DNA of 64,000 bases, from contig CAIWKE010000003.1 of assembly GCA_903913215.1 (NCBI GenBank), positions 248,001-312,000 on the forward strand. Reading direction: 5' to 3'. This document shows, one piece after another, positions 36,826 through 52,650 of the stretch; the stretch's first letter is position 1; each line of letters begins with the position of its first letter. The DNA comes from an uncultured Holophagaceae bacterium (GTDB taxonomy: Bacteria > Acidobacteriota > Holophagae > Holophagales > Holophagaceae). Below the pieces are notes generated by a model. That model did not search any database. It saw nothing but the letters and a program-made list of their open reading frames with translations, and was not told the DNA's origin. Both the position numbers and the translations under genes were made by a program.

Positions 36826-37038
36826 GCAAACCGGCATTGGGGATCATCCATCGGTTGATTAACCGCAGAGAACGCAGAGAGCGCAGAGAAAAGCAGGCAG
36901 TTCTCTGCGCCCTCTCAGATCCGCGAGCAGGCTGCAGACCTCGGGTAAGCAAATCGGCATTTGGGATCATCCATCGGTTGATTAACCGCAGAGAACGCAG
37001 AGAGCGCATAGAAAAGCGGGCAGTTCTCTGCGCCCTCT
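36793..37038. repeat. 123-base tandem duplication: yicC 3' end plus family B hairpin
   Basis: Copy 1 (36793-36915) starts ten codons before the yicC stop and runs into a hairpin arm. Copy 2 (36916-37038) repeats it with ten differences (~92% identity). Six of the ten lie in the 33-base coding stretch: three are synonymous, two change an amino acid and one swaps TAG for TAA. Copy 1 loses the outer part of the hairpin's right arm where copy 2 begins; copy 2 continues into a complete right arm. Confidence 0.9.
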
Positions 37039-37048
37039 GCGGTTAAGA
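36979..37048. repeat. Family B hairpin with nonamer-periodic arms (complete copy)
   Basis: Left arm units with nine-base period (CGCAGAGAA, CGCAGAGAG, CGCATAGAA) follow TTAACC. The right arm at about 37024-37047 reads back TTCTCTGCG, CCCTCTGCGG and TTAA. An incomplete copy, cut by the duplication, lies at 36859-36915. Confidence 0.8.
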
Positions 37049-37055
37049 GTTTTTC

Positions 37056-37110
37056 CTCCGCGTTCTCAGCGTTCTCCGCGGTTGGCGGTTTGGCGGTTTG
37101 GCGGTTGGCG
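37056..37110. repeat. Decayed family B arm followed by an octamer microsatellite
   Basis: 37056-37083 reads (reverse strand) AACCGCGGA, GAACGCTGA, GAACGCGGA, a diverged nonamer arm without a partner. From 37082 the octamer TTGGCGGT repeats about three and a half times up to 37110, just before the stop of the next minus-strand gene at 37114. Confidence 0.7.
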
Positions 37111-40174: not shown

Positions 40175-40912
40175 ATGCGCTGGCCTCTGGGACTTGCCCT
40201 GATGTCCACCCTTGGTGTTCCTGACCTTTCTGCCCCTGATCCCGCACCCCCGGCCAACCCGGCCGAGGAACTGGCCTTCGTCCGGGCCCGGGCCCGCATG
40301 GTCCAGGCGCAGCTGCGGTTCCGGGGCATCCGGGACGAGCGGGTGCTGGCGGCCCTGGCCACGGTGCCCCGTCAGGCCTTCGTCCCAGCCCACCTGCGGG
40401 CCCGGGCCTACGAGGATGGTCCCCTGCCCATCGGCCTGGGTCAGACCATCTCCCAGCCCTACATCGTAGCCTTCATGACCGAGGCCCTGGCCCTGCAGCC
40501 CGGGGAGCGGGTGCTGGAGGTGGGTACCGGCTCCGGCTACCAGGCCGCCGTGCTCTCGGATCTGGTGGCGGAGGTCTGGACCCTGGAGCGGGTGCCGGAG
40601 CTGGCCGAGCGAGCTCGCAGCCAGCTGGCCCTCCTGCACTGTGCCAACGTGCGGGTCCGCTGCGGCGACGGCTTCCTGGGCTGGCCCGAGGGCGCCCCCT
40701 TCGACGCCATCCTGGTCACCTGCGCCCCGGAGGAGGTGCCCCCGGCCCTGGTGGCCCAGCTGCGGGAGGGTGGCCGCATGATCCTGCCCCTCGGCCCCCA
40801 GGGGCAGGCCCAGCAGCTCTGCCTGCTGCGCAAGGGCCCCGGCGGCCTGGATGTCCAGTCGGTGATGCTGGTGGCCTTCGTCCCCATGGTCCCCGGCGGG
40901 CCCGAGCCCTGA
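40175..40912 (+). CDS. pcm: Protein-L-isoaspartate O-methyltransferase, possibly exported
   Basis: SAM-dependent repair enzyme for damaged aspartyl residues. Family motifs: IRDERVLAALATVPRQAFVP, the PCMT loop GLGQTISQPYIVAFM, SAM loop VLEVGTGSGYQAA and FDAILVTCAPEEVPPAL. The usual protein would begin near residue 35; here an extra N-terminus MRWPLGLALMSTLGVPDLSA looks like a weak signal peptide followed by a Pro/Ala linker, so a periplasmic form is possible. If translation began later this would vanish. The length is 245. Confidence 0.9.
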   Translation: MRWPLGLALMSTLGVPDLSAPDPAPPANPAEELAFVRARARMVQAQLRFRGIRDERVLAALATVPRQAFVPAHLRARAYEDGPLPIGLGQTISQPYIVAFMTEALALQPGERVLEVGTGSGYQAAVLSDLVAEVWTLERVPELAERARSQLALLHCANVRVRCGDGFLGWPEGAPFDAILVTCAPEEVPPALVAQLREGGRMILPLGPQGQAQQLCLLRKGPGGLDVQSVMLVAFVPMVPGGPEP

Positions 40913-40941
40913 GCGCTTGACGGCGTTCTCTTAGGCTCTTG

Positions 40942-41016
40942 CATCCCCGTTCACCTCCGGCCATCCCCGGCTAAATTCTTTTTTTTGCCGGGGATCTGCG
41001 GGGATGGACGGGGATG
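40942..41016. repeat. Hairpin with decamer-periodic G-rich arms (family C)
   Basis: Two 30-base arms (40942-40971 and 40987-41016) pair imperfectly around a 15-base loop rich in T. The right arm consists of three decamers, each starting CGGGGAT: CGGGGATCTG, CGGGGATGGA, CGGGGATGCG. It lies between pcm and the ABC transporter genes, both on the + strand. It could form a very stable RNA hairpin; with the T-run in the loop and not after the stem it is not a standard terminator. Confidence 0.85.
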
Positions 41017-41161
41017 CGCACGGCCAATTACTCTCCCGGTTCTGCAACCCTCCGCTACCCGACCCACCCCGCTCACCGACTCTCCGCCGCCGTTCACCGA
41101 TCCGTCCCCCGCTGGGGCCCGGGCCTTCCTACACTGGAACCTCGCCGCACCGGAGGCTCGA

Positions 41162-41923
41162 TTGATCCAGCTCAATGAGGTCCACAAGTCCTTCACGGTG
41201 AAGGACCGGAAGACACGAAGCACCAAGCGCATCGACGCAGTGCGGGGCATCTCGCTCACGGTGAAGCCTGGCGAGATCTACGGCCTGCTGGGCCCCAACG
41301 GGGCTGGCAAGTCCACCACCTTGCGCATGATCGCGGCCCTCATGGACCCCGACGCGGGCGACATCCAGGTCTGCGGCATGGACACGCGCCAGCAGCCCGA
41401 GGCCGTACGGGGCTGTCTGGGCTACCTCAGCACCGACATGGGCGTCTACACCCGCTTCACGCCGCGCGAACTACTGCGCCTCTTCGGTGAGTTCCAGGAC
41501 GTGGATCCCGCCATCGCCGAACGCCGGGGGATGCACCTGTTGGACAAACTGCAGCTGGCGGACTTTGCAGATGTGAAGATGGAGGGCTTCTCCTCGGGCC
41601 AGAAGCAGAAGGTGGGCATCGCCCGGGCTCTCCTGCACGATCCCAAGGTGGTCATCTTCGACGAGCCCACCACGGGCCTGGACGTGCTCACGGCCAAGAC
41701 CGTGCTCGACCTGCTCCGCATCATGCGCGAAGAAGGGCGCAGCGTCATCGTCTCCACCCATGTCATGCCCATGGTGGAAGACATCTGCGACCGCGTGGGG
41801 ATCATCTTCGACGGCAAGCTCCACGGGGACGCGCCGCCCCGGGAGGTGCTGGCCTCTCGCCATGCCAAGACCCTCGATGAGGTCTTCTTCCAGCTCGCAG
41901 CCGAATCCGAAGGAGCCAACTGA
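41162..41923 (+). CDS. natA: ABC transporter ATP-binding protein (NatA-like)
   Basis: ATPase of a sodium-efflux-type ABC exporter (253 residues). Walker A GLLGPNGAGKSTT (about residue 45), Q-loop region TDMGVYTRFTPRELL, signature FSSGQKQKVGIARALL, Walker B VVIFDEPTTGLD and the H-loop STHVMPMVE. TTG 41162 is preferred because GGAGG lies five bases upstream and the opening LIQLNEVHKSF fits the family. The permease follows with a one-base overlap. Substrate Na+ is inferred from NatA/NatB similarity; other small ions or drugs are possible. Confidence 0.88.
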   Translation: MIQLNEVHKSFTVKDRKTRSTKRIDAVRGISLTVKPGEIYGLLGPNGAGKSTTLRMIAALMDPDAGDIQVCGMDTRQQPEAVRGCLGYLSTDMGVYTRFTPRELLRLFGEFQDVDPAIAERRGMHLLDKLQLADFADVKMEGFSSGQKQKVGIARALLHDPKVVIFDEPTTGLDVLTAKTVLDLLRIMREEGRSVIVSTHVMPMVEDICDRVGIIFDGKLHGDAPPREVLASRHAKTLDEVFFQLAAESEGAN

Positions 41924-52578: not shown

Positions 52579-52650
52579 TAACCGCAGAGGACGCAGAGAG
52601 CGCAGAGAAAGGCCTTCTCTCCTCTGTGCTCTCTGCGTCCTCTGCGGTTA
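52579..52650. repeat. Family B hairpin (nonamer-periodic arms)
   Basis: Left arm from TAACC with CGCAGAGGA, CGCAGAGAG, CGCAGAGAA; the right arm reads back through TGTGCTCTCTGCG and TCCTCTGCGGTTA to 52650. It lies between the convergent cation-efflux and dus genes. It is followed by TCTCTTTTGATTTT on the + strand. Confidence 0.88.

Follow-up and report, generated by a model that had tools for sequence, protein, structure and literature searches.

The 64,000-nt stretch of Holophagaceae DNA analysed here (the window) carries a pair of inverted, G-rich repeat arrays that begins 28 nt past the end of a pcm-like ORF and precedes a natA-like gene, all on the + strand (Table 1). Each array is 27 bp long and consists of three CGGGGAT cores at exact 10-bp steps, one of the six cores of the pair being degenerate; those of the right arm begin at 40989, 40999 and 41009. 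An inverted-repeat search returned arms of 35 nt each (40941-40975 and 40983-41017) that are 80% complementary, with 7 nt between them. The RNA fold of the + strand is very stable (z -7.8; 0 of 200 shuffles equally stable), and that of the - strand has z -5.1. Complementarity and fold thus bear out the imperfect decamer hairpin between pcm and natA that the first-pass annotation had described, and its view that this is not a standard terminator also holds. The T-run sits within the loop and no T run follows the stem, the 3' flank on the + strand being GCACGGCCAA, and a reading as an intrinsic terminator is accordingly not supported. A G-quadruplex-like structure, which had also been suggested, finds no support either: there are at most three G4 tracts per arm, and both strands of 40901-41060 lack a four-tract motif, whether the loops allowed are 1-7 or 1-12. 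Rfam gave no family at gathering score anywhere in the window. Between the palindrome and natA, at ~41070-41140, lies a block that is also present in relatives (CCGTTCACCGAT ... CTAGACTGG-like), perhaps a promoter or operator.

Table 1. Inverted array pair and neighbouring genes, in window coordinates
Feature	Position	Strand	Remarks
pcm-like ORF, upstream	40175..40912	+	Gene name from the first-pass annotation
Whole inverted array pair	40941..41017	.	"Inside-out": GCCGGGG ends turned to the loop
Left three-core array	40943..40969	-	+ strand order ATCCCCG, degenerate ACCTCCG, ATCCCCG; then GC to 40971
T-rich loop TAAATTCTTTTTTTT, 15 nt	40972..40986	+	Position is that of the gene in locus L150 (see text)
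Right three-core array	40989..41015	+	CGGGGAT three times, all perfect, 10-bp steps; GC before at 40987-40988
natA-like ABC transporter ATPase gene, downstream	41162..41923	+	Gene name from the first-pass annotation; TTG start inferred, ~41162

Within the window, the exact two-decamer pattern occurs solely at 40941-41017, and loose matches (at most 3 mismatches) are uninformative, with 24 found and 16.5 expected. The whole genome (3.9 Mb in 41 contigs, 95% complete) gives a different picture. A search for CGGGGATn3CGGGGAT at no more than 1 mismatch returned 75 matches, against 1 for the reversed-pattern control, as befits the repeat family that had been proposed from the letters of this locus. 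The matches fall into 35 clusters. Two or more matches are present in 23 of these, and most of the 12 single-match clusters are probably due to chance. Because six clusters at contig ends have common flanks, some may be one copy counted repeatedly, and the estimate of roughly twenty true copies carries this uncertainty; it is not the single copy that would have spoken against a family. For assembly, the repeat matters in that six contig ends of this draft genome fall within it.

Read by eye, the pairs of this genome are mostly "outward" (TTTTGGCCGGGGAT...loop...ATCCCCGGCCAAAA). In a strict scan of 21 own loci, 9 pairs were outward and 1, that of the window, was inside-out; the other 11 were arrays without a passing partner, a class that includes arrays whose partner is short or degenerate; indeed, several of the 11 show such a partner by eye, and four own arrays stand alone by eye (L002, L025, L037, L048). 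At 39 further Holophagaceae loci, taken from the 40 acidobacterial loci of the GTDB scan described below, the same scan counted 9 outward, 15 inside-out and 23 unpaired. A codon model placed 20 of the 21 own copies in intergenic DNA; the exception is the window's copy (L001), scored as within coding solely through the natA ORF running on upstream. Both neighbours were called for 17 own copies, of which 9 lie in convergent gaps, 8 in co-directional gaps and none in a divergent gap; 6 of the 24 window gaps longer than 60 bp are divergent.

We compared the two arms in 34 pairs. Cores are 92% identical and spacers 59% (45% with arms shuffled among pairs), figures in which core conservation is partly built in, the arrays having been found by core with as many as 5 mismatches allowed. 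Because the scan favours good cores and several own pairs are near-identical, the contrast is somewhat overstated. This difference between cores and spacers suggests that selection acts on each core more than on an RNA stem, and the cores seem to be conserved as for a protein that reads DNA, more than as for the stem of an RNA hairpin.

A GTDB scan with the triple pattern returned 55 stretches, 40 of them from Holophagaceae/Acidobacteria MAGs (by title, 32 Holophagaceae, 1 Geothrix and 7 Acidobacteria); the 15 from other phyla are, by eye, period-10 tandem runs without an inverted partner and were set aside. Among the 77 genomes of the taxonomic family, 18 carry the exact triple and none the control pattern. 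Arrays with other cores, such as CACGGAG and CACCGATG, also occur.

In five relatives (G029, G006, G040, G059 and G056), CGGGGAT arrays flank a gene of the GxxExxY/PDDEXK_3 nuclease family, the loci being L150 (in G029), L148/L301, L142, L145 and L268. At L150, the arrays stand around the gene in exactly the inside-out orientation of the window's pair. The window's own genome has three PF13366 genes (TIGR04256, GxxExxY), each between inverted arrays that share this architecture but have different cores. Such bracketing is nearly general. With an inverted repeat of score at least 32 within 400 bp either side of the gene as the criterion, repeats were found at 100 of 113 Holophagaceae GxxExxY loci (shuffled, 2/565; cross-locus pairs, 154/3000) and at 21 of 26 loci from Acidobacteriota outside that family, other classes included (shuffled, 0/130; cross-locus, 78/650), leaving 13 and 5 loci below threshold. 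These loci are the best-scoring among the matches listed and not a random sample, and some were scored by program and not read by eye. Cross-locus pairs do pass the threshold at times (5% and 12%), which is to be expected where loci have cores in common. Bracketing was found at 0 of 25 natA genes and 3 of 204 random gene-sized segments. The counts of 100 and 21 include four loci (L322, L328, L337 and L229) at which the GxxExxY gene lies between long inverted repeats of another kind.

Of the repeat-bearing loci, 91 of the 100 from Holophagaceae and 20 of the other 21 have a three-core array, with steps of 8-11 bp, in each arm (shuffled arms, 29/1000 and 0/210). A first version of this test, restricted to 9-11 bp, found both arms in 63/100 and 8/21 (shuffled, 14/1000 and 0/210), fewer because many families step by 8. 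The common steps are 9+9, 10+10, 8+9 and 8+8. The first-pass annotation had read the ten-base spacing as placing the G4 tracts on one face of the DNA, which agrees with the exact 10-bp period of the CGGGGAT family; this period is a trait of that family and its nearer relatives and does not extend to all families. Since sister families use steps of 8, 9 or 10 bp, helical phasing is not a general rule; this wider range weakens the general phasing idea and leaves intact the reading of the arrays as parts of an element.

Among the matches listed, GxxExxY proteins are present in 62 of the 77 genomes that represent the taxonomic family; in the phylum sample, 77 of 197 genomes have them. One genome of the same family, G065, stands out with 49 PF13366 matches among those listed, the next highest of the 77 having 10. 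Seven plasmid records from other phyla carry the gene, six of them under the name GxxExxY. The flanking inverted repeat exceeds all 200 shuffles in four (Gemmatirosa, Bacteroides, Bernardetia and Sphingomonas), and three (Fusobacteria ZRK30, Treponema and Prevotella) are without clear arrays. On the Sphingomonas plasmid (NZ_CP155749.1, L403), gene and inverted arrays lie between fabD and fabG. IMG/VR yielded five loci with flanking inverted repeats as judged by raw score (33-114), one of the CACAAAGAA kind.

The bracketed genes match PF13366 and TIGR04256 at curated cut-offs. Across 117 sequences, conservation reaches 99% or more at the three named residues of the GxxExxY motif and, further on, at D, ExK, Q and Y, and the D, E and K of the PD-(D/E)XK signature are present in 99-100%. 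The fold is predicted with confidence (pLDDT 91.1, pTM 0.84). Its best structural match is SSO0001 (Z 10.1, rmsd 3.1, 98 aligned), and it also resembles a restriction-endonuclease-like protein (Z 8.3, rmsd 2.8, 98 aligned); the match to the Holliday junction resolvase Hjc (Z 7.2) is in a range that may mean a common arrangement only. By signature, modelled fold and PF13366, the protein qualifies as a member of the PD-(D/E)XK nuclease family, for which cutting is predicted. The gene is kept by selection: nine pairs gave dN/dS values of 0.03-0.23, although dS was saturated in several of them. A sequence search of the PDB with the protein gave one chance-level match, to ketol-acid reductoisomerase (E 0.022), which was discarded.

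Array and protein vary together. For this comparison the four loci with long repeats of another kind were dropped, which left 117 rows, or 113 without near copies. In a Mantel test on pairs below 70% identity, protein identity correlates with array similarity at r = 0.382, a value reached in 0 of 999 permutations. When all 117 proteins are ordered by how similar they are to that of L150, the four others bracketed by CGGGGAT come 2nd, 3rd, 4th and 7th. On a tree of the 113 proteins, five core classes require 17 changes, against a shuffled mean of 56.8 (0 of 200 shuffles as low). One side of its midpoint fork holds all 40 GAT and all 5 CGGGGAT rows, and the other 37 of the 38 GAG and 20 of the 27 AAG rows; these core labels come from a simple count, and some rows, such as L146, are probably mislabelled. 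The five CGGGGAT proteins do not group together on the tree but fall into two groups. Shared descent of whole elements accounts for part of the co-variation, which does not by itself prove recognition.

Arrays and gene seem to move as a unit. DNA homology between elements at different sites ends at or near the outer array ends in five comparisons. They include a group counted as one comparison (L121 against L119, L122, L126 and L127; L125 against L119, L122 and L127), in which L125 against L126 is the exception, homology ending 67 bp short on the right, and further L131/L330, L323/L327 and L127/L269. In the fifth comparison, of the CGGGGAT type, L150 and L148 (G006) are alike at ~81% from the first ATCCCCG to the opposite-side GCCGGGG, with no homology beyond. 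Many more distant homologous pairs end inside the element, near the gene.

Two insertion sites were read across relatives, at 18 and 19 of 20 returned loci each; L377 and L381, on broken contigs, and L370, with one flank, were left out. At the 19-locus site, 15 of 19 have a gap of 31-32 bp, G041, G008 and G005 carry gene-bearing elements of two core kinds, and G024 carries a gene-less palindrome of a third core. At the 18-locus site, the gap is 52 bp in 9 of 18 and the gene is present in G041; G033 has the element of G041 with most of the gene deleted and its last stretch kept, and gene-less palindromes of three further cores occupy the site in G036, G037 and G027. The occupants of these sites indicate that internal deletion can yield gene-less forms and that the same gaps are reused. 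No target-site duplication was recognised by eye when the two sites were compared with their diverged empty relatives. Two other observations were made here. At the 18-locus site, L376, L378, L379 and L380 (G017, G048, G040 and G046) carry a long palindrome of another kind (CGCAGTGCGAAGCGCC-like). At the 19-locus site, the G005 locus (L363) has several similar CACCGATGA palindromes in a row beside the GxxExxY gene, filling 1292 bp where the gap is 31-32 bp.

CGGGGAT arrays are absent upstream of natA in all 27 relatives with at least 400 bp there, and uppP, not pcm, lies directly before natA in 25 of the 27 (99-147 bp away in 23 of these). Because pcm is also extra here, natA gives no exact empty site. 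In one relative (L198), the uppP-natA gap holds CACAGAGGA-type repeats.

We conclude that the hairpin at 40941-41017 is probably a gene-less, non-autonomous, MITE- or REP-like derivative of a GxxExxY nuclease element. It has the three-core inverted arrays, its core brackets GxxExxY in relatives, and its own gene is absent; we call it a derivative and not a full element because the 15-nt loop holds no gene. Its membership in a mobile array family is well supported by comparison of sequences: the shared arrays, the bracketing, the co-variation of core and protein, the boundaries at the arrays, the occupied and empty sites and the one deleted sister copy. The full element is ~400-970 bp long. It has one gene, for a ~120-aa GxxExxY protein of PD-(D/E)XK fold (PF13366/TIGR04256), and an array on each side in inverted orientation; an array consists of three short cores, spaced at 8-10 bp steps (10 in the CGGGGAT family). 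The nuclease would bind its own array and cut at or near it, and repair or recombination would then copy the element. Gene-less pairs would be born by internal deletion and either be mobilised in trans or decay in place, and any effect on pcm or natA expression, such as a 3'-end hairpin on the pcm mRNA or insulation of natA, would be a by-product.

That the GxxExxY nuclease moves the arrays is something we infer. The family assignment is the firmer claim, because no cognate nuclease was found in the genome, the coupling between gene and copy number is loose and no target duplication was recognised. No CGGGGAT-clade GxxExxY gene was found at 1e-25 in this 95% complete genome, whose three GxxExxY genes fall outside that clade, so that it is without an evident current mobiliser. 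Among the loci read, a CGGGGAT-bracketed gene is present in 4 of the 18 genomes with the exact triple, and none in G031 (12 triples) or G000 (11), so copy number is only loosely coupled to the cognate gene across genomes. For a broader reading the chances seem to us about even: GxxExxY may be the mobility and specificity factor of widespread, undescribed minimal elements that shed gene-less palindromes. Its protein clades would each tend to have their own core, and the elements would spread via intergenic gaps in several phyla, as a nuclease-driven counterpart of the REP-RAYT system.

The arrays might instead be mobile with GxxExxY as a passenger, or as a separate selfish or defence nuclease, while another enzyme acts in trans, as with the MITEs of insertion sequences. 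This we regard as unlikely, although the genome lacks a CGGGGAT-clade gene, gene-less copies are many, GxxExxY activity is a prediction and palindromes with quite different cores occupy the same gaps. Against it stand the near-general bracketing across families and the co-variation of core with protein. Moreover, GxxExxY is the sole gene identified between CGGGGAT arrays, a statement that covers closely spaced pairs and not wider ones such as L076 and L107, and for which the transposase search was of PF01797 in the window's own genome. A defence role receives little encouragement from PADLOC, which gave nothing convincing, with matches only at E 0.03-0.06. Like bacterial MITEs, the copies are short and gene-less and have inverted ends in common with a gene-bearing element; for a sister element, G033 has a derivative formed by internal deletion. 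They differ from MITEs in the bracketed gene, which does not encode a recognised transposase, and in their ends, which are arrays and not simple terminal repeats; nor was a target duplication recognised.

It is more doubtful still that the palindrome is an RNA element, a hairpin at the end of the pcm transcript whose role would be to stabilise that end or to attenuate read-through into natA. The very stable fold on both strands would fit, as would the 17 own copies in convergent and co-directional gaps with none in a divergent one. The arms of the pairs, however, agree in their cores far more than in their spacers, although spacers agree better than in shuffled pairs, and some own arrays stand alone. 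The T-run in the loop, the lack of an Rfam family at gathering score in the window and the varying orientation of the pairs also speak against an RNA function.

The best-known elements of similar habit are REP/BIME sequences moved by REP-associated tyrosine transposases (RAYTs). According to PMC2817692, the RAYT gene lies between two inverted repeats, repeat and protein coevolve and the repeats alternate in orientation; the REP unit of PMC3733652 is a short palindrome, one end of which bears a GTAG or CGTC tag. REPs are dispersed, extragenic, found in both orientations and 3' of genes (compare PMC2817692 and PMC3733652), as the arrays are. The arrays also share with them the small gene between inverted copies, the co-variation of core and protein and the gene-less copies, those of this genome being extragenic. 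The differences are that the protein has a PD-(D/E)XK fold instead of being a Y1 transposase, and that the unit consists of three direct cores and is not self-complementary, so that a hairpin needs a pair. The strong link between gene presence and repeat number reported for RAYTs was not seen here. By eye, no GTAG or CGTC tag was seen beside the arrays. The Y1 transposase profile PF01797 has 0 matches in the 95% complete genome, while 5 of 14 control genomes were positive, and with the direct-repeat unit this makes a RAYT-driven REP a very improbable identity for the hairpin. Equally improbable is a G-quadruplex regulatory site, or an array of nucleoid-protein sites unrelated to mobility: G4 tracts at 10-bp steps and core conservation suggestive of a protein reader could be so explained, but there is no four-tract motif, and presence or absence at sites, gene bracketing and homology boundaries are unexpected of a fixed regulatory site.

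PD-(D/E)XK homing endonucleases offer a further comparison. In these, a single small nuclease gene spreads with its recognition DNA, as the gene of a GxxExxY nuclease element would. Here, in contrast, there is no intron or intein; the loci read lie in intergenic gaps and have arrays as ends. The gene of the 23S rRNA intervening protein (PF05635) is seen in similar repeats; its profile had no match in the window's own genome, and none in the control genomes either, which makes this negative uninformative. The GxxExxY family (TIGR04256/PF13366 PDDEXK_3), to which the array-bracketed genes belong by their matches, is known here by motif and fold only.

A mobile repeat group that brackets GxxExxY is apparently undescribed. 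The literature searched, mostly open-access and without bioRxiv preprints, holds no description that links GxxExxY to inverted arrays or mobility; the portion of PMC8934634 that names GxxExxY does so in an unrelated context, and passages of PMC3174227 have no description of a GxxExxY array family. GxxExxY is an annotation name without a function, and if the arrays are its target, a common orphan protein gets a testable role. This would also give an origin to many of the small palindromes between genes in Acidobacteriota, and perhaps in other phyla, and would show that a restriction-type nuclease can take the place of a Y1 transposase in driving REP-like repeats. The clades with their different short cores would then be a natural set in which to follow change of DNA specificity in small nucleases.

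The window holds other arrays of this general build. At ~36860-37086 lie CCGCAGAG-type arrays that include a near-perfect tandem duplication of ~120 bp, and the CCGCAGAG core also brackets one of the GxxExxY genes of the same genome (L063). Another outward CCGCAGAG palindrome, gene-less and with three cores per arm, is located at ~52579-52650.
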